Assembly (NCBI GenBank): GCA_900197615.1
Contig: FZLR01000024.1
Coordinates: 1 to 38,448 of the forward strand
Direction of reading: 5' to 3'
DNA length: 38,448 nt
DNA from: Rhodospirillaceae bacterium Spongia-Bin9
GTDB taxonomy: Bacteria; Pseudomonadota; Alphaproteobacteria; Bin65
In this document: one piece after another, positions 6,298 to 22,607 of the stretch
Layout of the letters: every line of letters starts with the position of its first letter
How positions within the stretch are numbered: the stretch's first letter is position 1
Program-made: the position numbers and the translations under genes
Notes under the pieces: model-generated
Told to the model about the DNA's origin: nothing
The model's database searches: none
The model's input: only the letters and a program-made list of their open reading frames with translations

Positions 6298-7494
6298 GTG
6301 ACGCAAGCCGAACCGTTCTACCGACTCAAGCGCCTGCCGCCCTACCTGTTCGCCGAAGTGAACGCGATGAAACATCGCGCGCGCAGCGCAGGCGAGGACA
6401 TTATCGATTTCGGCATGGGCAATCCGGATAGCCCGACGCCGCCGCATATCGTCGAGAAGCTGATCGAGACGGTGCGCAACCCGCGGACGCATCGCTATTC
6501 GACTTCGCGCGGCATCCCCGGCCTGCGCCGGGCGATCTCGGCCTACTACGAACGGCGGCACAACGTGGCGGTCGATCCTGAGCGGGAAGTCGTGGTCAAC
6601 CTCGGCTCGAAGGAGGGTTTCGTCAATCTGGCCCAGGCCATCGTGGCGCCGGGCGACATGATCGTTGCGCCGAACCCGACCTACCCGATCCACAGCTACG
6701 CCTTCATCATCGCCGGGGCCTCGATCCGCCATCTGCCGCTGACCCCGGCCCACGACTATCTCCGCGAACTGGAGCGCGCGGTGCGCCATTCGGTGCCGCC
6801 GCCGACGGCCCTGATCCTGAACTTTCCCTCGAACCCGACGGCGCAGGTGGTCGATCTCGACTTCTACCGGGAAGTGGTCGACTTCTGCCGGCGCAACGAA
6901 CTGCTGATCGTTTCCGATCTCGCGTATGCGGAAATATTTTTCGATGGCAACCCGCCGCCGTCGATCCTCGAAGTGCCGGGCGCGAAGGACATCGCCATCG
7001 AGTTCCAGTCCCTCAGCAAGACCTATTCGATGCCGGGCTGGCGCGTCGGCTTTGCGGTCGGCAACGAGCGGCTGGTCCAGGCGCTCGCCCATGTAAAATC
7101 CTATGTCGACTACGGCGCCTTCACGCCGGTCCAGGTCGCGGCCACGGCGGCGCTGAACGGCCCGCAGGACTGCGTCGCCGAGTTCCGGGAACTCTACCGA
7201 AAGCGGCGCGACGTTCTGGTCGAAGGGCTGGCGGCGGCCGGATGGGACGTGCCGAGCCCGCCGGCGACCATGTTCGCCTGGGTGCCGCTGCCGCCGCGCT
7301 TTGCCGACATGGGCTCGATGGAGTTTGCCAAATTACTGCTCAACGAGGCAAAAGTCGCGGTATCGCCGGGTATCGGATTCGGCGAATATGGCGAGGGTTA
7401 TCTCCGGGTCGCGCTGGTCGAGAACCGGCAGCGCATCCGGCAGGCGACCCGCAATATCAAGGCTTTCCTTTCCGGCGATGCGGTCGGCGCGTGA
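6298..7494 (+). CDS. alaC: Class I/II aminotransferase, AlaC/DapL-like
   Basis: A 398-residue PLP-dependent fold-type I aminotransferase. It is closest in style to the AlaC (glutamate-pyruvate) transaminases, which are often annotated as LL-diaminopimelate aminotransferase in alphaproteobacteria. Active-site residues visible are Asn179 (NFPSNPTA), Asp207 (SDLAYAEI), the Schiff-base Lys241 (SLSKTYSMPGWRVGF) and Arg249, with FGMGNPDSPTP near residue 40. It starts at GTG 6298. The next gene is homoserine dehydrogenase, 42 bp downstream. This pairing with hom, glpX and recJ recurs in Rhodospirillales-type genomes (recalled, not searched) and argues for a role in alanine or aspartate-family amino-acid metabolism. 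The precise amino-donor preference cannot be read from the sequence. Confidence 0.85.
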   Translation: MTQAEPFYRLKRLPPYLFAEVNAMKHRARSAGEDIIDFGMGNPDSPTPPHIVEKLIETVRNPRTHRYSTSRGIPGLRRAISAYYERRHNVAVDPEREVVVNLGSKEGFVNLAQAIVAPGDMIVAPNPTYPIHSYAFIIAGASIRHLPLTPAHDYLRELERAVRHSVPPPTALILNFPSNPTAQVVDLDFYREVVDFCRRNELLIVSDLAYAEIFFDGNPPPSILEVPGAKDIAIEFQSLSKTYSMPGWRVGFAVGNERLVQALAHVKSYVDYGAFTPVQVAATAALNGPQDCVAEFRELYRKRRDVLVEGLAAAGWDVPSPPATMFAWVPLPPRFADMGSMEFAKLLLNEAKVAVSPGIGFGEYGEGYLRVALVENRQRIRQATRNIKAFLSGDAVGA

Positions 7495-7536
7495 CCGGCC
7501 GGTTTTTCGAGACGGTGTTCCCCAAAGCGGTCTGAT

Positions 7537-11942: not shown

Positions 11943-13076
11943 ATGTCGCAAACGACAATGCTCAAGTCGGTTCGGATTCGCGGATTCAGGTCTCTTGCGG
12001 ATGTCGAACTATCGAATTTGGGATCGACAAGCGTTCTGATCGGACCAAACGGCTCGGGCAAATCCAACTTTATGCATTTTTTCGATATGCTGAGTTGGAT
12101 GCTCAAATCCCGGCGCCTCAGCGAGTATGTCGAGCGCTACGGCGGGGCCGACGACCAGTTGTACGGCGGCAGCGGAACCACGCCGGTCATGCAGGCCGAG
12201 ATTGGCCTGGACACCGCAGGGGGTCGGAACGAGTACCGCTTCACCCTTGCGCACGCCCATCCCGACCGGCTGATGTTCACCGAGGAGGCCTTTCGTTTCA
12301 GCCGAAACTTGTCTGACAAGGCTCCTTGGACCCATCTCGGCGGCGATGGACACCGGGAAGCGCGCATTGTCGAGGCGGCGCAATCTCCACCCCGGCCGGA
12401 GGTCAACCAGAAAACCGCGCGAACCATCGCCTTTCTGCTTCGCAACTGCGCCGTCTATCAGTTCCACGATACCTCGGACAACTCCGATTTCAAAAAACGC
12501 TGGGACTTGGATGACAATAATGCGCTGCGTTCCCACGGAGGAAACTTATCGGCGATTCTTTACAGGTTGGAACAGGAAGATAATCGCCGGTTCGAGTCTA
12601 TCTGTCGGCATATCGCGCGAATTCTCCCTGTATTCGACCGATTTCAGGTCGAAGACAGCTACGGAAAAACCATCTTGAGGTGGAAGGCGAAGGGCACGAA
12701 AAAGACATTCGGCGCGCATCTTACTTCCGACGGATCGCTTCGCTTCTTCGCGCTTGTTACCTTGTTGAATCTTCCCCGGGAAATGCTTCCAGACATCGTT
12801 CTTCTGGACGAACCCGAGCTCGGCTTACATCCGGCGGCCGTTGCGCTGATCGGTGACATGGTCAAGTCCCGCTCCCATGACGTGCAGATTATCGTTGCAA
12901 CCCAGTCGCCGCTCCTCGTCGACGCTTTCGATCTCGAAGAGGTCGTCGTTCTGGATCTTGAGGATGGCCGCACGGCGGTTCGCCGTCTCGATGTCGACGA
13001 TTATCGCTGCTGGCTCGACGATAACTTTACGCTTGGAGAGCTATGGCAGAAGAATCTTGTCGGGGGACGTCCATGA
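11943..13076 (+). CDS. AAA ATPase of the OLD/RecF/COG4637 type
   Basis: A 377-residue SMC/ABC-like ATPase without a nuclease domain of its own. It opens MLKSVRIRGFRSLADVELSN, a typical RecF/OLD first strand. Walker A GPNGSGKSN is at 34-42, an ABC-signature-like SDGSLRFFALVTLL at 262-275, and Walker B DIVLLDEPELGLHP at 284-297 with Asp289 and catalytic Glu290. The switch segment VATQSPLLVDAF follows. Its stop overlaps the start of the DUF4276 gene by 4 bp, so the two are translationally coupled. Codon use is visibly less GC-biased than in recJ or the following operon, consistent with recent acquisition. ATPase plus DUF4276 pairs resemble two-gene versions of OLD nucleases and the PARIS layout (AriA ATPase plus AriB TOPRIM). 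A defence role is inferred, not shown. Confidence 0.88.
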   Translation: MSQTTMLKSVRIRGFRSLADVELSNLGSTSVLIGPNGSGKSNFMHFFDMLSWMLKSRRLSEYVERYGGADDQLYGGSGTTPVMQAEIGLDTAGGRNEYRFTLAHAHPDRLMFTEEAFRFSRNLSDKAPWTHLGGDGHREARIVEAAQSPPRPEVNQKTARTIAFLLRNCAVYQFHDTSDNSDFKKRWDLDDNNALRSHGGNLSAILYRLEQEDNRRFESICRHIARILPVFDRFQVEDSYGKTILRWKAKGTKKTFGAHLTSDGSLRFFALVTLLNLPREMLPDIVLLDEPELGLHPAAVALIGDMVKSRSHDVQIIVATQSPLLVDAFDLEEVVVLDLEDGRTAVRRLDVDDYRCWLDDNFTLGELWQKNLVGGRP

Positions 13077-13723
13077 TCCGGCTTGCAGTATCGGTGGAAG
13101 GACAGACGGAAGAAGAGTTCGTTAAGAAAGTGCTGGCCGCACACTTATCGCAATGTGCGGTCGCCGTTTATCCCATCCTACTTGGTCGGGCACGAAATGG
13201 CTGCGCCGGCGGCGGCAACGTCACGGTGGAACGACTCGTTTTAGAGATGTCGCATCTCTGTTATTCATTCGACGCCGTTACCTCGCTCGTCGATTTCTAC
13301 GGCTTCAAGGGTAAGGGGGACGCCACAAACGATGAATTGCAAGAAGCGGTGCGTCATGGCGTCGAGAGTAAAACCGGCAGAAACGGAATCAGAATCATAC
13401 CCTATGTCCAGAGGCACGAATTCGAAAGTTTGCTGTTTTCCGATATTTGCGCCTTTCCGGCTACCATCGAAATATCGCCAGAAGCAATCGAAACGCTCAA
13501 GGGCATTCGGTTGGGCTTCCCGACGCCGGAGGACATCAACGATAATGCGGCCACGGCTCCGAGCCGACGCATTACGAACGCGGCGCCGCAATATCGGAAG
13601 CGTCTTCACGGACCGTTGATCGCCGAGGAAGCCGGCATGGATAAAATCCGGGCCGAATGTCCTCGCTTCAACGCCTGGGTCGGAATGCTGGAAACCCTTC
13701 AGGACCGCCTCAAACACCGATGA
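13073..13723 (+). CDS. DUF4276 family protein (TOPRIM-like partner of the ATPase)
   Basis: The 216-residue protein carries the DUF4276 hallmarks: SVEGQTEEEFVKK with Glu9 near the N-terminus, SLVDFYGFKGKGD with Asp74, and YVQRHEFESLLFSD with His115, Glu116 and Glu118. The early Glu followed by an acidic DxY element resembles a TOPRIM metal site, as in OLD-family nucleases. That relationship is my inference from the motif layout. It starts at ATG 13073 within an ATGA overlap with the upstream ATPase. A longer frame begins at 13043, but the overlap start is preferred. The protein probably acts as nuclease or effector under control of the ATPase. GC bias is low, like its partner. Confidence 0.85.
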   Translation: MIRLAVSVEGQTEEEFVKKVLAAHLSQCAVAVYPILLGRARNGCAGGGNVTVERLVLEMSHLCYSFDAVTSLVDFYGFKGKGDATNDELQEAVRHGVESKTGRNGIRIIPYVQRHEFESLLFSDICAFPATIEISPEAIETLKGIRLGFPTPEDINDNAATAPSRRITNAAPQYRKRLHGPLIAEEAGMDKIRAECPRFNAWVGMLETLQDRLKHR

Positions 13724-14960: not shown

Positions 14961-16250
14961 CTACCGGTTATCCTGAAACCGCGGCGCCTTGACCGCGCCC
15001 TCGAATTCCCGGGCGAGGGTGCCGAGGTCGAGCCGGACCAGTTCGGGGCGCAGTTCGAAGACGGTGCGGATCTTCTCGGCCAGCTCGGCGGCGAGCGCCC
15101 CGGCATCTGCCTCCTGCCGCGCCTCGTAGGAGACGCGCAGCACGTCGAGCGCGTCGGGGCCGGCGAGCGCCTCGCACTTGAAATCCTGGACGCCGGCCAT
15201 CCGGAACATGAAATCCTCGAAATCCCCGTGGGTGACGTTGACGCCGCGGACCTTGAAGAAGCCGGCCGTGCGATGGGCGTGTTTGAGGCGCGGAAAGATA
15301 CCGTAGCCGTCGCCTTCCGGCTCGGTCGAGCGCCAGACCACCAGGTCGCCGGAATTCCAGCGGATGAACGGCGTGGCGTTGACGTTCCACAGCGCGGTGG
15401 AGACCAGCACGCCTTCCTCGCCGGGGCCGGCCGGCTCATGGGTCTCCGGGTCGAGGACCTCCAGATGGAACATGTCGGTCCACATGCGGAAGCCGTCGTG
15501 CCTATCGTCCTCGGCGCCCATCATGCACATCTCGGTCATGCCGAAGCCGTCGAAGACGGTCGCGCCCCACATGCTCTCGATCTTGGCGCGCTTAGCGTCG
15601 GAAAGCGGCTCGGCGCAGCACAGGATTTTCTGCACCGGGGAATTCTTCAGGTCGAAGCCCGTGGCTTCGGCGAGGTTGGCCAGATGGAGCGCATAGCCGG
15701 GCATGCCCATCCACACGGTCGGTTGCATCTGGTCGATCAGCTCGACCTGGACCGCCGACGGCGTATTGGCGCCGGCGCCGGCCCAGTTCACGCCCACGCC
15801 CATCTGCTGGCAGACCCGGGCGCTGACATGGCCGACCGGATGGATGCCGAGCGGGTAGGAGATATGCGCCGTATCGCCTTCCCGGACGCCGGCGAGCCGG
15901 ATGCCGCGCCGGAAGCCTTCGAACATGAATTCCATGTCCCGGAAGGTGCGCGGGTAGAACACCGGCTTGCCGGTCGAGCCGCCGGAGCGCCAGTATTCCT
16001 GGATGTCCTCGCGCGGCGCGATGTTGAAATCGGCCATGAATTCGCGCGGGGAGAGGGCGCGCAATTCGTCCTTGCCGAGGATCGGGATGCGCCGCCATTC
16101 CTCCGGCTCGTGGATGCGGTCGAGGTCCAGGTCGGCCGGCAGGCGCTTGCGGTGGAACGGTGCGGTGAGCGCGGCCTCCGCGGCGGCGCGCATCCGCTCC
16201 CGCTGGATGGCGTCGATCCCGGCGTGCGATGTCGGGAAAGGCAGGGTCAT
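14961..16250 (-). CDS. PaaK-like adenylate-forming acyl-CoA ligase
   Basis: The 429-residue member of the phenylacetate-CoA ligase family activates a carboxylate through an acyl-adenylate and usually passes it to CoA. Visible motifs are the P-loop-like YWRSGGSTGKPVFYPRT near residue 95, FDGFGMTEMCMMG (aromatic-Gly-x-T-E) near 215, FIRWNSGDLVVWR with the adenylate-binding Asp, and a C-terminal domain containing GFFKVRGVNVTHGDFED. Start ATG 16250 gives MTLPFPTSHAGIDAIQRERM. It overlaps the upstream Fe-S protein stop by 4 bp, so it is the last gene of a coupled four-gene operon. The substrate is unknown. The genes around it give no aromatic-degradation signature, so phenylacetate is not implied. 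Confidence 0.88.
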   Translation of the reverse strand: MTLPFPTSHAGIDAIQRERMRAAAEAALTAPFHRKRLPADLDLDRIHEPEEWRRIPILGKDELRALSPREFMADFNIAPREDIQEYWRSGGSTGKPVFYPRTFRDMEFMFEGFRRGIRLAGVREGDTAHISYPLGIHPVGHVSARVCQQMGVGVNWAGAGANTPSAVQVELIDQMQPTVWMGMPGYALHLANLAEATGFDLKNSPVQKILCCAEPLSDAKRAKIESMWGATVFDGFGMTEMCMMGAEDDRHDGFRMWTDMFHLEVLDPETHEPAGPGEEGVLVSTALWNVNATPFIRWNSGDLVVWRSTEPEGDGYGIFPRLKHAHRTAGFFKVRGVNVTHGDFEDFMFRMAGVQDFKCEALAGPDALDVLRVSYEARQEADAGALAAELAEKIRTVFELRPELVRLDLGTLAREFEGAVKAPRFQDNR

Positions 16251-17233
16251 CCGAAGCGGCCGATCCAGCGCTTCTGCGCCGCGAAGCCTTCCGGCATTTC
16301 GCCCGCCGCCTCGGCCCCGGCATAATCGGCAAGCCGTGCCCGTTTGGCATCGCTGTCCTCGGGCATGTCGTCGAGCGAATCGCCGATCATGCGCTCGAAG
16401 TCGGCACCGACCGGGCAGACATCCTGGCAGCGGCGGCAGCCGGTGATCGCGCCGGCGCCGCGCAGGATCGACTGCCACAGGTTGAACGTGTCTTCCGAGC
16501 GCAGCATGGATTTCTGCTGCGCCGGATCGGCCTCCAGCATCCGGTCCATGAAGCCGGTCAGATGGTGGAAGCCGTGAGGCGCCCGGAACTTGTCGCAGCC
16601 GGCCCAGTCGCGCGCCCAGTGGCCGACCACGTCGCCCGGGCAGGTGCGCAGGCAGCGCCCGCATTCCGGCCCCTTGCACAGCGCCGCTTCCATCCGGCTG
16701 TCGCAATCGACCGGCGCCGAACAGAGCACGCCGGCCAGCATGACCCGCGGGCCGTATTCCGGCGTCAGCAGTTGCAGGTTGAGGCCCAGCGTGCCGAGCC
16801 CGGCCTCGACGGCGCAATGGTCGAGGGAGAGCAGCGGCTTCATCGGCTCGTCGGGATCGCCGCGATAGCGCCACGGATCGACATGGGTCGGCGGCACGAT
16901 CAGGGCCGGCCAGCCCCTGGCCTCCAGCCATAGCACCAGCTCGAGGGCGGTCTCCTCGAGACCCGTCATGGTCAGTTCGTCGTTGTAGTATTTGTGGCGC
17001 TCGTCCCAGCGCGGGATGCGGGTGACGCCGGCCGACAGGCGCTTCGCCAGAACGATGACCCGGTCGGCGTCGTAGTCCGAGATATCGGCCGGAATCCGCG
17101 GATCGGCCGGATCGGGCGGGTTGGCGTTGATCTCGGCGCTGTCGGCGATGCCGACCAGGTCGGCGCCGAGCTCCCGCGCCTTCGCCTTGATATCTGCGGC
17201 GTCAAGGGTTTCCTGAAAGGCGGTGACGGCCAC
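16247..17233 (-). CDS. QueG/reductive-dehalogenase-like Fe-S protein (paralogue 2)
   Basis: The 328-residue cytoplasmic protein has the fold pattern of epoxyqueuosine reductase and reductive dehalogenases. These enzymes use a corrinoid and two 4Fe-4S clusters. The N-terminal KARELGADLVGIADSAEI and the segment AVEAGLGTLGLNLQLLTPEY resemble the corrinoid-binding part of QueG. Cluster motifs are CKGPECGRCLRTCPGD (C-x4-C-x2-C-x3-CP) and GCRRCQDVCPVG. There is no Tat signal, unlike respiratory RdhA, and no HEAT domain as in full QueG. It is clearly homologous along its whole length to the upstream neighbour and follows it by 3 bp. It overlaps the ligase gene by 4 bp. The reaction is unknown. A reductive step on a CoA- or adenylate-linked substrate is speculation. 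Confidence 0.85.
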   Translation of the reverse strand: MAVTAFQETLDAADIKAKARELGADLVGIADSAEINANPPDPADPRIPADISDYDADRVIVLAKRLSAGVTRIPRWDERHKYYNDELTMTGLEETALELVLWLEARGWPALIVPPTHVDPWRYRGDPDEPMKPLLSLDHCAVEAGLGTLGLNLQLLTPEYGPRVMLAGVLCSAPVDCDSRMEAALCKGPECGRCLRTCPGDVVGHWARDWAGCDKFRAPHGFHHLTGFMDRMLEADPAQQKSMLRSEDTFNLWQSILRGAGAITGCRRCQDVCPVGADFERMIGDSLDDMPEDSDAKRARLADYAGAEAAGEMPEGFAAQKRWIGRFG

Positions 17234-17236
17234 AGC

Positions 17237-18283
17237 CTATTCCTCCGCGCCGGCTGCTGCGGACTCGCGCTCGCGCTGCGCCTTCTTGAAGGCCTGGACC
17301 TGGCGCGCCACCATGCCCTTGTAGCCGTCCGGGCCGACCCAGCGCTCGTTCCAGTCGTTCAGCCCGTCGATGTCGGCGCCGTCCTTGCGCGCCTGCTTGA
17401 AAGCCTTGGCTTTCTCAACCTTCTGCGGCGTCTTCTCCGGGATGAACTTCTGCACGTCGGCGAGATAGGCGTGATAGTCGTTGCCGACCGGGCAGACCGC
17501 GAGGCAGCGCGGGCAATCGCCGAACGAGCCGACGACGCGCAACAGCCCCTGCCAGAAGCCGAACACGCCACGGCTCTTGTTGAAGGTCCGTTTCTGCTCC
17601 CGGTCGAGGCCGATATAGCGGTCGAAGAAGCCGGTGATCTGGGCGTAGCCGAATTCCTGGGCCTCGGTCGCGCAGTTGCGCTTGTCGATGCCGAAATGGC
17701 GCACGGCGTCGGACGGGCAGGAATACAGGCACCGCGAACAGCTTTCGCCAATACAGACCTGCTCGGTCAGGATATCGTCGGGCTCCAGCTCGGCCTCGGT
17801 AAGGATGCCGGTGAGATAGACCCGCGGCCCGTATTCCGGCGTCAGGATGTTGACCTCCAGCCCGAAGGTGCCGAGCCCGGCCTCGATGCCGAGATGGCGG
17901 GTCGAGAGCCGGCCGTAGCTGGCCCGCTTGAGGTTCCAGTCGGTCTCCTGCGCCGCCGTGACGAAGGAGGGATGGCCGGCGTCTTCCAGCGCCTCGGCGA
18001 TCCGGAAGGCGATCCGGTCCATCCGGCGCAGCACCAGCATGTCGATATACTGGACCGCGATGTTGGTCTTGGCCCGGAAGGCGGCGACCGGGATGTGCTG
18101 GACGATCGCGACCACGGATTTGACATGGGGCGAAACCCGGTCCGGCGTCTGGGGCCAGCGCGGGTCGGGCGGGAAGGCGTTCAGCGTCTCGGCGCTGGCG
18201 ATGCCGACCAGGTCGGCGCCGAGGTCCGCGGCCAGGGCCTTGACCCCGGCAGCGGACATCGGAGCGGCAGCCCCGTCCGGCAC
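17237..18283 (-). CDS. QueG/reductive-dehalogenase-like Fe-S protein (paralogue 1)
   Basis: A ~348-residue paralogue of the downstream gene. Shared landmarks are ALAADLGADLVGIASAETLN, GIEAGLGTFGLEVNILTPEY, cluster motif CIGESCSRCLYSCPSDAV (C-x4-C-x2-C-x3-CP) and DCPRCLAVCPVGNDYHAYLA. A longer, charged C-terminal tail (KKAQRERESAAAGAEE) distinguishes it. The chosen start is GTG 18283, 2 bp after the transglutaminase stop and preceded by AAGGCGG. ATG 18259 is a shorter alternative with a weaker ribosome site. Two such paralogues side by side suggest a heteromeric enzyme or two sequential reductions. No Tat signal or membrane segment is visible. Confidence 0.83.
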   Translation of the reverse strand: MPDGAAAPMSAAGVKALAADLGADLVGIASAETLNAFPPDPRWPQTPDRVSPHVKSVVAIVQHIPVAAFRAKTNIAVQYIDMLVLRRMDRIAFRIAEALEDAGHPSFVTAAQETDWNLKRASYGRLSTRHLGIEAGLGTFGLEVNILTPEYGPRVYLTGILTEAELEPDDILTEQVCIGESCSRCLYSCPSDAVRHFGIDKRNCATEAQEFGYAQITGFFDRYIGLDREQKRTFNKSRGVFGFWQGLLRVVGSFGDCPRCLAVCPVGNDYHAYLADVQKFIPEKTPQKVEKAKAFKQARKDGADIDGLNDWNERWVGPDGYKGMVARQVQAFKKAQRERESAAAGAEE

Positions 18284-18285
18284 GG

Positions 18286-19050
18286 TCAGGCCGCCTTGCC
18301 GGCGCCGGTGTCCGGCTGTTCCTCCCGGGCGGCATCCTCGGCAAAGGCTTCGGGGTCGGAATCCGCCAGGTCCCACTGTTCTTCGCGGTATTTCGGATAG
18401 CGCCAGGCGAAATCGGTCATGATTTCATGGAACGGTATATCGCTGTAGATGCCGCGGTCCTGAAGATATTCCATGTGGCGGCGGCCGGCCGCGTCGTATT
18501 CCTGGAACAGGGCGTCGCCGCGGCCGTCGAATTCCTGGGGCTTGACCTTCGCCTTCTCGCACAGGGTGCGGTTGAACACCGGCGTCGCCTTCACCCACTG
18601 TCCCTCCAGCCAGATATCGGCATAGCCGTGGTAGGAGAAGATGTCGGTGCCCATGGCGTCGCGCAATTTGGGCGTCGTCAGATGGTTCTTGACGTCGGCA
18701 TAGCCGACCCGGGACGGGATGCCGAGATGCCGACAGCAGGCGACCATCGCCAGCGATTTCTGCACGCACCAGCCGCTGCCGCGCCCGATCAGCGCGCTGG
18801 CCCGGTACTCCGCCCGGTCGATCGGGATGGCGTAGGGCGAATAGAAAAAATCGTCCCGGATGGCGTAGAACAGGTTCACCGCCTTGCCGAGGTCGTCCGC
18901 GGCGTCGCCGGCGTTGCGTTCGGAATATTCCTGCACGGCGGGATCGTCGAAATCCATATACCAGGTCGGCTCCAGAAAAGCCGACGGCTCGGCGTCGGCG
19001 ACCGGCACGCCGTCCTGCGGTTCCTTCTCGAAAACAAGCGGTTCGGTCAC
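18286..19050 (-). CDS. Transglutaminase-like (papain-fold) protein
   Basis: The 254-residue protein has a transglutaminase-core segment: GRGSGWCVQKSLAMVACCRH with the putative nucleophile Cys95, then SYHGYADIWLEGQWVKATP with His141. The usual third residue of the triad, an Asp in 'W-x-x-x-D-P', appears to be Thr156 here, so catalysis may be altered. The N-terminal PTWYMDFDDPAVQEYS and the C-terminal FHEIMTDFAWRYPKYRE have no motif I recognise. It starts at GTG 19050 with a good GGGAGAGGG ribosome site; the frame is open well upstream without homology. It is the first gene of the coupled operon with the two Fe-S proteins and the ligase. Such proteins can act as proteases, amidases or isopeptidases; which applies here is unknown. 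Confidence 0.82.
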   Translation of the reverse strand: MTEPLVFEKEPQDGVPVADAEPSAFLEPTWYMDFDDPAVQEYSERNAGDAADDLGKAVNLFYAIRDDFFYSPYAIPIDRAEYRASALIGRGSGWCVQKSLAMVACCRHLGIPSRVGYADVKNHLTTPKLRDAMGTDIFSYHGYADIWLEGQWVKATPVFNRTLCEKAKVKPQEFDGRGDALFQEYDAAGRRHMEYLQDRGIYSDIPFHEIMTDFAWRYPKYREEQWDLADSDPEAFAEDAAREEQPDTGAGKAA

Positions 19051-19289: not shown

Positions 19290-20015
19290 CTACCCCGCCG
19301 CCCGCTCCGCCTTGTGTGCCGCGACGAAGTCGGCGAGGGAATGGAAGGTGAAATCGGTGCGCGGCCGGTCGGCGAGCGCCATGGTCGCGCCGGAGCCCTC
19401 GCTGTCGTGCCGGCGGTAAATCCAGCAGTTCGCCAGGCCGAAATCGTTGGCCGGGCCGTGATCGTGGAACAGGCTTTCGGCGGTGTGGAGGATATCGTCC
19501 TTGCCGATGCCGTGGCGGGCGAGCTGTTCGAGCATGTAGTCGAAATTGCGCGGCGCCGGCTTGTAGGAGCCGATGTCGGCGGCGGTGTAGATCGCGTCGA
19601 ACTCCACCTCCAGCTTGCGGTTGGAGTGGGCGAAGCTGGCGTTGTCGACATTGGAGAGCACGACCAGCCTGTAGTGCTGCTTGAGATAGTGCAGCGAGGC
19701 CACGCTGTCGACGAAGGCCGGCCAGTCCTTCACCGAGGCTCCGTAAGCCAGGCATTCGTCCCAGCTCGCCGGTGCGCCCCATTCCTCGGCCAGGCGCTTG
19801 TACACGAGGGCAAGGAGTTCCGGATAGGGTGTCGCCGGGCTGGTCCGCTGCGCCGTCGACTCCTGGAAGGCGTGGGCTTCCAGAATGTCGTCCCGGCTCA
19901 ACGGTCTGTCGACCCGGTCGGTCAGCGGCTTCAGGCCTGCGACCATGCCGGATTCCCAGTCGATCAGGGTGCCGTAGCAATCGAAGGTGAGGGCTTTGAA
20001 ATCGGTCAGGCGCAT
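19290..20015 (-). CDS. HAD-superfamily hydrolase, haloacid dehalogenase type II-like
   Basis: A 241-residue haloacid-dehalogenase-fold hydrolase. Motif I FDCYGTLID has nucleophile Asp12 followed by x-Tyr instead of x-Asp, the pattern of L-2-haloacid dehalogenases rather than phosphatases. Motif II is VVLSNVDNASF, motif III GSYKPAPRNF with the conserved Lys, and motif IV ESLFHDHGPANDFG. The substrate could be a 2-haloacid, but many members annotated this way are uncharacterised. It lies on the same strand upstream of the transglutaminase operon, separated by 239 bp with a palindrome, so it may or may not share transcription. It is divergent from the TauD gene with a 124-bp shared promoter region. 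Confidence 0.88.
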   Translation of the reverse strand: MRLTDFKALTFDCYGTLIDWESGMVAGLKPLTDRVDRPLSRDDILEAHAFQESTAQRTSPATPYPELLALVYKRLAEEWGAPASWDECLAYGASVKDWPAFVDSVASLHYLKQHYRLVVLSNVDNASFAHSNRKLEVEFDAIYTAADIGSYKPAPRNFDYMLEQLARHGIGKDDILHTAESLFHDHGPANDFGLANCWIYRRHDSEGSGATMALADRPRTDFTFHSLADFVAAHKAERAAG

Positions 20016-20139
20016 GGCGGGGCTCGTTCGCAGGTCTCGTTATGCAAGTCTGGGCCGGGCATGTGCCGTGCGCCGGCCGGCGTTGCAAGCCGATTTCTGA
20101 CGCTGTACTGAACCGGCAGGCCGCTTGCGAGGCACGAAC

Positions 20140-21207
20140 ATGACTGTCGTAACCGCCGCTGACGGACGCTCCGTTGCCGTCTGCGGGCAGCCGGTTGCCG
20201 ATCCGGCGGACTGGACCGGGGCGGAGCTGCTTGCCCGCACCGACTGGCGATTCGCGGCAACCGCCGCCGAGAGCGCCCATCTGGCCGATATGGCACGCGC
20301 CGCGGCCGGCCGGCTGAACGGCGATCCGAACCGGCTGCTCAAAGCCTCGGCATCCGACTTCGACCTCGGCCCTTTTGCCGGCACGCTCGCTGCTCTGCTG
20401 GACCAGCTACGCGACGGTACGGGCATTGCGCTGTACCGCGGCCTGCCGCTCGACGACCTGTCGCCGCTGGAGGCCATGACCGCCTACTGGGCGATGGGCC
20501 TGCATATGGGCGCTGCCCAGTCCAACAATCCCGAAGGCGACATGATCGGCCATGTGCTGAACACCGGGCGCGACTACAACGATCCCCGGCACCGGGGCTA
20601 CCAGACCGGCGCGACCATGGACTATCACTGCGACCAGACCGATGCGGTCGGCCTGCTGTGCATCCGCACCGCGAAGTCCGGCGGCCGGTCCAAGATCGTC
20701 AGCTCGGTCCGGCTCTATAACGAGGTGCTGCGCCGGCGCCCGGACCTGCTCGACGTGCTGACCGAGCCCTATTGCTGGACCAAGCACGGCGAGAAGGACA
20801 CGGACGAACGGCCGTACTACGAGAGCCCGGCGTTCAACTTCCTGGACGGCAGGCTGTGCACCGCCTTCGGGCCGCAGCACATGATCAAGGGCCATGCTAT
20901 CCCGGAAGCGCCGGACATGACGGCCCGGCAGCGCGAAGCCATCGACGCGGTCGAGGGTCTGGCCGAAGAGCACCATGCCGCCATGGCGTTCGAACGCGGC
21001 GACATCCAGTTCCTCAACAATTACACGGCGCTGCACACACGGACCGCCTTCGAGGACTGGCCGGAACAGGAGCGCAAGCGCGTGCTGTGGCGCCTCTGGC
21101 TGCGCATCCCGGATTTCCGCCCGGCGACGCCCTATTCGGCGCAGTGGGCGGGCGGCGTCAGCCTCAGCGAGACCCGGAAACAAATCCGGCTGGTCTACCC
21201 CAGTTAG
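20140..21207 (+). CDS. TauD/TfdA-family Fe(II)/2-oxoglutarate dioxygenase
   Basis: The 355-residue dioxygenase uses Fe(II) and 2-oxoglutarate to hydroxylate or cleave an organic substrate. The facial triad is His163 and Asp165 (DYHCDQTDAVG) and His299 (YTALHTRTAFEDW), followed by the 2-oxoglutarate-binding Arg in the ERKRVLWRLWLR region. The N-terminal ~90 residues include a dehydrogenase-like helical leader often seen in this subgroup. Start ATG 20140 (MTVVTAADGRSVAV) is chosen over an upstream TTG. Neighbours (HAD dehalogenase-like protein, OYE-like oxidoreductase) fit xenobiotic or natural-product catabolism, but the substrate is not predictable. Confidence 0.9.
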   Translation: MTVVTAADGRSVAVCGQPVADPADWTGAELLARTDWRFAATAAESAHLADMARAAAGRLNGDPNRLLKASASDFDLGPFAGTLAALLDQLRDGTGIALYRGLPLDDLSPLEAMTAYWAMGLHMGAAQSNNPEGDMIGHVLNTGRDYNDPRHRGYQTGATMDYHCDQTDAVGLLCIRTAKSGGRSKIVSSVRLYNEVLRRRPDLLDVLTEPYCWTKHGEKDTDERPYYESPAFNFLDGRLCTAFGPQHMIKGHAIPEAPDMTARQREAIDAVEGLAEEHHAAMAFERGDIQFLNNYTALHTRTAFEDWPEQERKRVLWRLWLRIPDFRPATPYSAQWAGGVSLSETRKQIRLVYPS

Positions 21208-21383: not shown

Positions 21384-22607
21384 TTGGAGCGCGATACCTC
21401 AAATCGCAATGATGTTCTTCGAAGCTCCCTGGAGCTTCCTTGCGGCGCGATCCTGAAGAATCGACTGGCAAAGTCGGCTATGTCGGATTCGCTTGGGAAC
21501 GGTAAAGGCGATCCCACCGAAGCCCAGATTCGACTCTACGAAAGATGGGCGGAGGGCGGCGCAGCGGTGTCGATCATCGGTGAAGTTCAAGGCGATCCCC
21601 GGTATCCGGAGAAACCCGGGAATCTGGTATTCGGGGCGCATACCGATCGGCAGGCCATAAAGTCACTGATCGACCGTGCCGCGATCGAGGGCGCTCATCT
21701 ATGGCCGCAACTCGGCCATGCCGGCGCTCTTTCTCACCGGCCGATCGGTCGGCCGAAGGGCCCGTCTGCGCTGGATATCGACGGTCTTCAGTGTGCAGAA
21801 ATGTCAGCAAGAGACATCCGCGAACTGCCTGAAATGTATGCAAGAACCGCAGCATACGCAAAAGATGCAGGATTTGGCGGCGTTCACATTCATGCCGGGC
21901 ACGGGTTTCTGCTCAGCCAATTCCTGTCTCCATTGTTCAACCGCCGGGACGATGCCTACGGCGGTTCGATCGAAGCACGATGCCGGATAATTCTCGAAGC
22001 GATCCACGCAGTACGGCGCGCGGTCGGTCCGTCGTTTCCCGTGGGAATCAAGATCAATTCGACGGACAAACTGGAAGGCGGATTGACAGAGAACGATGCT
22101 TTGGAGGCGGTTCGCCTTCTCGATCGAACATCGGTCGATCTGATCGATATCAGCGGCGGGACCTATTTCCCCGGAGCGAAGGCAAGCTCGGAGGGGTCGT
22201 CGGATGGCGGACCGTACTTTCTCGAATTTGCCAGGCGCGCCAAAGGGGTAACCGATGTACCGCTGATGTTGACGGGTGGCTTCGAGAGGCGTGAGCAGGC
22301 AGCGGATGCAGTGGCTGGCGGTGCTGTCGACATGGTGAGCCTGGCGCGGGCCATGGTTCTCAATCCACGGCTTGCGGACGACTGGTTGACCGGGGAGGGC
22401 GGCAATCCTGCGTTTCCGAAATTCGAATCCCCGCCTAGAGGCGGGGTAACGGCCTGGTATACCATGCGATTGACGGCATTGGGTGAGGACAGGGAGAACA
22501 CGTTCACGCTGGACCCGCAGTCTGCCTTGCGCGCTTATGAAGAACGCGATGCGCAGCGTTGTATCGAATGGCGGCAGAGGTATTCGCACCTGACAGAATC
22601 GGATTGA
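21384..22607 (+). CDS. Old Yellow Enzyme-like NADH:flavin oxidoreductase
   Basis: The 407-residue FMN TIM barrel belongs to the OYE family. Recognisable segments are GNLVFGAHTDRQA, LWPQLGHAGALSHRP, HIHAGHGFLLSQFLSPLFNR followed by DDAYGGSIEARCRI, and MLTGGFERREQAADAVAGGA then DMVSLARAMV for the phosphate-binding end. It stops after the barrel, so it lacks the Fe-S and second flavin domains of 2,4-dienoyl-CoA reductase. The only suitable start in frame is TTG 21384, since no ATG or GTG lies between it and conserved sequence. The preceding 176 bp hold no other gene. Codon use is less GC-biased than in flanking genes, hinting at transfer. It is convergent with the MFS gene. The substrate is unknown. 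Confidence 0.88.
   Translation: MERDTSNRNDVLRSSLELPCGAILKNRLAKSAMSDSLGNGKGDPTEAQIRLYERWAEGGAAVSIIGEVQGDPRYPEKPGNLVFGAHTDRQAIKSLIDRAAIEGAHLWPQLGHAGALSHRPIGRPKGPSALDIDGLQCAEMSARDIRELPEMYARTAAYAKDAGFGGVHIHAGHGFLLSQFLSPLFNRRDDAYGGSIEARCRIILEAIHAVRRAVGPSFPVGIKINSTDKLEGGLTENDALEAVRLLDRTSVDLIDISGGTYFPGAKASSEGSSDGGPYFLEFARRAKGVTDVPLMLTGGFERREQAADAVAGGAVDMVSLARAMVLNPRLADDWLTGEGGNPAFPKFESPPRGGVTAWYTMRLTALGEDRENTFTLDPQSALRAYEERDAQRCIEWRQRYSHLTESD

Follow-up and report, generated by a model that had tools for sequence, protein, structure and literature searches.

Within the window analyzed here (38,448 nucleotides, contig FZLR01000024.1 of Rhodospirillaceae bacterium Spongia-Bin9), four closely spaced genes on the minus strand encode a transglutaminase-core protein (TGL), two paralogous iron-sulfur proteins (FS1 and FS2) and a PaaK-like coenzyme A (CoA) ligase (LIG). 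Our preferred reading, to which we assign a probability of about 45%, is that LIG makes an aryl-CoA, plausibly anthraniloyl-CoA, and that FS1 and FS2 form a two-subunit reductase that acts on the CoA thioester. This reading builds on the gene order, the paralogy of FS1 and FS2, their invariant cysteines and fold matches, their pairing across genomes, and the association of the pair with ligases, kynureninase and BoxB. The window forms contig C198 of a draft genome of 4.06 Mb (G000), whose closest named relatives are Rhodospirillaceae/Alphaproteobacteria metagenome bins.

The block opens with TGL (254 amino acids, positions 18286-19050), which has a GTG start and passes the transglutaminase-core model PF01841 (48.2 bits, cut-off 23). 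It is followed by FS1, the putative reductase subunit 1 (348 amino acids, 17237-18283), also annotated from a GTG, with an alternative ATG at 18259 that agrees with its orthologs. FS2, the putative subunit 2 and sister paralog of FS1 (328 amino acids, 16247-17233), again starts with GTG, and the block closes with LIG, a predicted AMP-forming acyl/aryl-CoA ligase (429 amino acids, 14961-16250). A first-pass annotation had described these genes as tightly coupled, and the coordinates bear this out: TGL and FS1 are separated by 2 bp and FS1 and FS2 by 3 bp, while FS2 and LIG overlap by 4 bp in a shared ATGA. Because the set is kept far beyond the host genome, its arrangement is not due to chance.

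Pfam recognizes only ferredoxin-type motifs in FS1 and FS2. Sequence matches in the PDB place FS1 closest to QueG (1e-9) and PceA (3e-6), and FS2 matches the same two proteins. The AlphaFold2 model of FS2 (pLDDT 89.6, pTM 0.89), when searched with Foldseek, found NpRdhA first (1e-8), then PceA, QueG and, more weakly, the B12 chaperone MMACHC (2e-3). For FS1 the model is of low quality (pLDDT 60), but its best fold matches are likewise QueG and PceA. In these models FS2, and as far as its model can be read FS1, appear to contain the cobalamin-binding alpha/beta domain of the RdhA/QueG/MMACHC type, which agrees with the QueG/RdhA-like fold that the first-pass annotation had proposed for both proteins and makes cobalamin binding plausible. 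In both subunits this N-terminal domain shows strong conservation, and many residues beyond the cluster motifs are invariant. The host genome encodes CobN, consistent with cobalamin synthesis. No sequence motif marks bound base-off cobalamin (PMC4646009).

Both proteins carry the expected cysteine motifs, C-x4-C-x2-C-x3-CP and C-x2-C-x3-CP, and in each an extra cysteine (FS1 C204, FS2 C213) completes two four-cysteine sets. All eight are invariant, both in FS1 (Cys 177, 182, 185, 189, 204, 257, 260 and 264; alignment of 41 sequences) and in FS2 (Cys 186, 191, 194, 198, 213, 266, 269 and 273; 39 sequences), and they align in the same layout with the cluster ligands of QueG. By analogy with the assignment made for QueG (PMC4646009), the first three cysteines of the C-x4-C-x2-C-x3-C set together with the last cysteine would hold the distal cluster, and the remaining four would hold the proximal one. 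Judged by these ligand residues, each protein would carry two [4Fe-4S] clusters.

Family models set the pair apart from both of its best-known relatives. The QueG model TIGR00276 gave 49.9 bits for FS1 and 31.9 bits for FS2 (NCBIfam equivalog cut-off 200), and the reductive dehalogenase (RDH) model TIGR02486 gave 31.7 and 17.1 bits (subfamily cut-off 160). In a tree built by a quick method with a single QueG row and some long branches, FS1 and FS2 each form a clade of their own, and the two clades are sisters, distinct from the RDH-family proteins and QueG of related genomes; the FS side also takes in two remote FS-like rows that stem from other contigs. With scores far under the cut-offs, clades of their own and residues unlike those of QueG, FS1 and FS2 are therefore neither QueG nor, by score, reductive dehalogenases, while belonging to the same fold class. 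They share with QueG the class III cobalamin fold, the eight-cysteine layout and a similar size, but differ in lacking its catalytic Asp and its DYH motif (in a segment whose alignment is uncertain by a few columns), in occurring as two subunits and in standing beside a CoA ligase. The dehalogenases NpRdhA and PceA, which are among the best structural matches of FS2, have the same order of Fe-S and cobalamin domains; unlike them, FS1 and FS2 are encoded as a pair in a CoA-ester context. That the two genes are duplicate copies of queG was considered and rejected on score, on clade and on the presence of a true QueG elsewhere in the genomes of FS1-FS2-bearing relatives (over the cut-off in 9 of 11).

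A search for FS1 loci, taking one genome per species, returned 55, and the counts that follow add loci from relatives. In 58 of 59 FS1 loci, FS2 lies directly after FS1 and is read from the same strand, mostly with less than 60 nucleotides between them, which upholds the paired arrangement proposed earlier and makes a heteromer probable. A CoA ligase is found within 5.5 kb of the pair in 42 of the 48 loci with enough downstream sequence, against a chance expectation of about 13% (43 AMP-binding genes in 4.06 Mb); as these loci are related and not independent, a formal probability for the association is not meaningful. On the FS1 tree, no fewer than four changes of ligase type are needed, so that different ligases (the PaaK-like LIG, two unrelated long ligases and another PaaK-like one) have been paired with the same FS1-FS2. 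Unless CoA activation and FS1-FS2 are functionally linked, such switching would be difficult to account for. Co-occurrence elsewhere, which had been set as a test of the block, was found for all four genes in two families and for the FS1-FS2-ligase core across Alpha-, Beta- and Gammaproteobacteria. One locus, L041, belongs to Amorphus coralli DSM 19760, the single strain noticed among the loci that is clearly in culture. The family is nonetheless sparse, since only one of 398 genomes in a phylum-wide sample, the host's own, gave a match. A plasmid collection gave no match to FS1 or FS2, and a phage collection none to FS1.

LIG itself belongs to the adenylate-forming ligases, as had been supposed: it matches PF00501 (49.6 bits) and is similar over nearly its full length to the PaaK structure 2y27 (E=8e-33), and its loop SGG-x-TG-x-P is invariant. 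Unlike PaaK phenylacetate-CoA ligase, whose fold it shares, it reaches 178 bits with PaaK_haloarch and 140 bits with PA_CoA_ligase (TIGR02155, equivalog cut-off 646), against equivalog cut-offs of 646-700. A search of the host genome for LuxE (PF04443) gave no match.

The neighbors of the pair in other genomes narrow the likely substrates. A kynureninase gene (over the TIGR01814 cut-off) adjoins the block in four genomes (loci L087/G009, L088/G008, L089/G017 and L090/G007) and in the betaproteobacterial locus L082. The kynureninase gene of L089 shares 4 bp with the ligase gene, and this locus also holds a benzoate transporter, BenE. The product of kynureninase is anthranilate. L082 further encodes a full-length protein of the salicylyl-CoA 5-hydroxylase/2-aminobenzoyl-CoA monooxygenase-reductase family (1285 bits, cut-off 1078); the model bears the former name, and the latter function is one that we take to belong to the same family. 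A second FS1-FS2 pair in the host genome (L086:8300-17944, contig G000:C156) is accompanied by a benzoate-CoA-ligase-family protein (513 bits, cut-off 375), TetR, two MaoC proteins, a thiolase, ALDH, a PaaA-like protein and a PaaE-like reductase, possibly a complete aryl-CoA degradation cluster. In L057 a PaaA-like gene and a PaaK-like ligase follow the pair. Among 61 relatives, BoxB is encoded in all 11 with an FS1-FS2 pair and in 5 of the 50 without one, and the monooxygenase/reductase family in 11 of 11 and 9 of 50 (G019, which has a remote FS1 match only, being counted as without), both associations being confounded by shared ancestry, as 10 of the 11 genomes fall in one family. Together, kynureninase, the monooxygenase/reductase, BenE and the PaaA/BoxB-type proteins point to ordinary aromatic acids, best anthranilate, and to aromatic acyl-CoA metabolism in bacteria that also encode oxygen-using enzymes of ring attack.

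We propose that LIG would activate a carboxylic acid, most likely an aromatic one such as the anthranilate released by kynureninase, to its aryl-CoA. Fold and gene pairing lead us to infer that FS1 and FS2 form a heterodimer of the class III reductase type, with cobalamin and with two [4Fe-4S] clusters per subunit. Low-potential electrons would pass through the clusters to cobalamin, bringing it to the Co(I) state in one subunit or both, and would power a reductive conversion of the aryl-CoA, the presumed substrate. The most economical reaction would be loss of a ring substituent, converting anthraniloyl-CoA to benzoyl-CoA and ammonia, with benzoyl-CoA entering the Box pathway; this reductive deamination is a guess, one among several reactions that would fit. 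Anaerobic Azoarcus evansii is reported to make benzoyl-CoA from anthranilate with the help of a ligase and of a 2-aminobenzoyl-CoA reductase (PMC4539516), and we found no gene assigned to that reductase in the open literature. The monooxygenase/reductase pathway for anthranilate, a homolog of which adjoins the pair in L082, likewise consists of CoA activation followed by reduction; its reductase is a flavoenzyme (PMC4539516), whereas the PaaK-like ligase gene of the window follows Fe-S genes of the class III type.

Several observations weigh against this proposal. The column of the QueG catalytic Asp (Asp130/134) holds Ser or Thr in FS1 and has no matching residue in FS2, and the segment of the active-site Tyr is variable in both proteins (Tyr in 32 of 41 FS1 and 35 of 39 FS2 sequences). 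The low quality of the FS1 model has been mentioned, and a search of 19 loci with Rfam turned up no cobalamin riboswitch. In the genus of the window, kynureninase is encoded on another contig and not beside the block, and the host also has an aminobenzoyl-CoA monooxygenase/reductase (G000:C296) that would offer anthranilate an alternative route. The common descent behind the BoxB counts belongs here too. Some FS1-FS2 loci carry other ligases or acyl-CoA dehydrogenase and thiolase genes, and the substrate may therefore vary. For the deamination step in particular, we know of no aryl reductive deamination by Co(I), and 4-hydroxybenzoyl-CoA reductase represents a molybdenum-enzyme family rather than a cobalamin one. 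It is under this last name that the candidate for reductive deamination of the para isomer in Desulfatiglans anilini is annotated (PMC7500099).

The same CoA-ester context could also suit reductive dehalogenation, with FS1-FS2 acting on a halogenated aryl-CoA (for example bromo- or chloro-anthraniloyl-CoA) as a CoA-dependent relative of the catabolic enzymes of aerobes. We regard this as unlikely, though as a serious alternative. Structures of NpRdhA are the best fold matches of FS2, the host genome has true RDH-family proteins (over the TIGR02486 cut-off), one of them beside CoA ligases (L113), an RDH-family gene comes directly after the pair in L070 and L073, and a type II haloacid dehalogenase gene neighbors the block in the window. 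That neighbor, however, does not accompany the block beyond the window and its two nearest loci, the RDH scores of FS1 and FS2 fall far short of the cut-off, and FS1 does not keep the Arg305 of PceA (Tyr, Asn or Gln stands in column 156). The loci come, according to their records, from soil, groundwater, freshwater and marine bins, with no recurrent halogen-specific gene. The halogenated substrates envisaged by the first-pass annotation find no specific support, and the neighboring genes speak for ordinary aromatic acids instead.

The reaction of QueG is the reduction of an epoxide, for which it uses cobalamin together with two [4Fe-4S] clusters (PMC4646009), and FS1-FS2 might by extension deoxygenate a ring epoxide or hydroxyl of an aryl-CoA, as partner or safety valve of PaaA/BoxB-type epoxidases. 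While PaaA-family genes adjoin the pair or lie near it in L057, L062, L066, L067 and L086, and BoxB accompanies FS1 in relatives, most FS1-FS2-LIG loci are without an adjoining epoxidase and the QueG catalytic Asp is replaced, which leaves this QueG-like chemistry improbable. We give equally little weight to a role without a catalytic corrinoid, in which FS1-FS2 would serve an oxygenase, a ligase pathway or an RDH encoded nearby, either as an Fe-S electron carrier or as a reactivating protein. Such a role would sit well with the missing riboswitches, with active-site residues not shared with QueG and with the RDH-family gene that follows the pair in two loci; the strongly conserved cobalamin-type domain of both subunits would, however, be needless in an electron carrier, and no single redox partner recurs.

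The first-pass scheme, in which TGL releases an amide, LIG activates the product, FS1-FS2 performs a corrinoid-type reduction, and the HAD and dioxygenase genes extend the pathway toward halogenated substrates, has very little chance of being right: TGL lies directly upstream of FS1 (2-bp gap) and accompanies FS1-FS2-LIG in several genera, but it is absent from most FS1-FS2-LIG loci, it lacks the triad Asp in all orthologs, and the HAD and TauD genes are limited to the nearest relatives. The suspected absence of that Asp proved correct, with Thr156 at its position in 9 of 9 orthologs, while Cys95 and His141 are invariant. TGL occurs with the three core genes only in one family (f1) and one further genome, and its absence outside these two families makes it a lineage-specific accessory rather than a core part of the system.

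Returning to the preferred reading of an aryl-CoA reductase, what is new in FS1-FS2 is that two class III-type proteins are encoded as a pair and linked to CoA activation, the fold and clusters being known. In line with the earlier remark that no described pathway has this set, no description of a ligase with a QueG/RDH-like pair was found in the open PubMed Central literature, to which the search was confined. In its boldest form, the reading would make FS1-FS2 a class III cobalamin enzyme without precedent both in having two subunits and in acting on CoA thioesters, deaminating anthraniloyl-CoA to benzoyl-CoA in aerobes; we hold this version to be doubtful. If true, it would link the breakdown of tryptophan through kynurenine to the Box pathway, and central aromatic catabolism would join organohalides and one tRNA base among the targets of cobalamin reduction. 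Given that no assigned gene was found in open papers, the pair is a concrete candidate for the 2-aminobenzoyl-CoA reductase activity. The authors of a QueG structure suggested that further uncharacterized families dependent on B12 and [4Fe-4S] clusters may exist and that no distinct motif reveals them (PMC4646009); with its conserved subunits, conserved CoA-activation context and short list of substrates, FS1-FS2 is a candidate for such a family.

In genomes bearing FS1-FS2, QueG/RDH-like matches can number about ten or more per genome, and several of them pass the RDH cut-off. RDH-like genes stand beside acyl-CoA ligases on G000:C292 (L113:107-5866), G000:C116 (L115:4864-7438) and G009:C140 (L117:4271-8382), and on G008:C371 (L126) and G009:C97 (L127) they are also near a monooxygenase-reductase family gene. 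In two loci from marine Rhodospirillales (L070:5947-12898 and L073:5989-10839) the FS1-FS2 pair is followed directly by an RDH-family gene (181 and 170 bits, over the cut-off) and then by an acyl-CoA synthetase, with SDR and thiolase genes also present in L070. In this lineage, the combination of class III reductases and CoA ligases may reach beyond FS1-FS2 as a theme not yet described and, if so, would represent an undescribed branch of aromatic and acyl-CoA metabolism.

Upstream of the block in the window lies the HAD hydrolase gene (19290-20015, minus strand; haloacid dehalogenase type II, TIGR01428, 150 bits, cut-off 125), followed by the divergent gene of a TauD/TfdA-family dioxygenase (20125-21207, plus strand; PF02668, 115 bits). 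Both are outside the conserved block and accompany it nowhere but in the window and the two closest loci (L031 and L032), a distribution that rules them out as members or extensions of the pathway. Next to them is an old-yellow-enzyme-type (OYE) oxidoreductase (21384-22607, plus strand; PF00724, 149 bits), a neighbor of uncertain relevance. Distant OYE genes also flank FS1-FS2-LIG in L038, L045, L046 and L047, and in L082 an OYE domain forms part of the monooxygenase/reductase protein.

Among the other neighbors of the pair, genes for DsbA-like proteins of the thioredoxin fold (L039:486-998, L047:5546-5989, L050:5446-5949 and L090:4854-5504, with homologs in L035 and L087) sit directly upstream of FS1 or downstream of kynureninase, and L090 also has a cyclase-family gene (6897-7532). 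On the other side of the block in the window, an AAA ATPase gene (AAA_21, 12072-13723, plus strand) overlaps a DUF4276 gene, and PADLOC matched this pair strongly to the candidate defense system HEC-01 (HEC-01A 329 bits, HEC-01B 205 bits).

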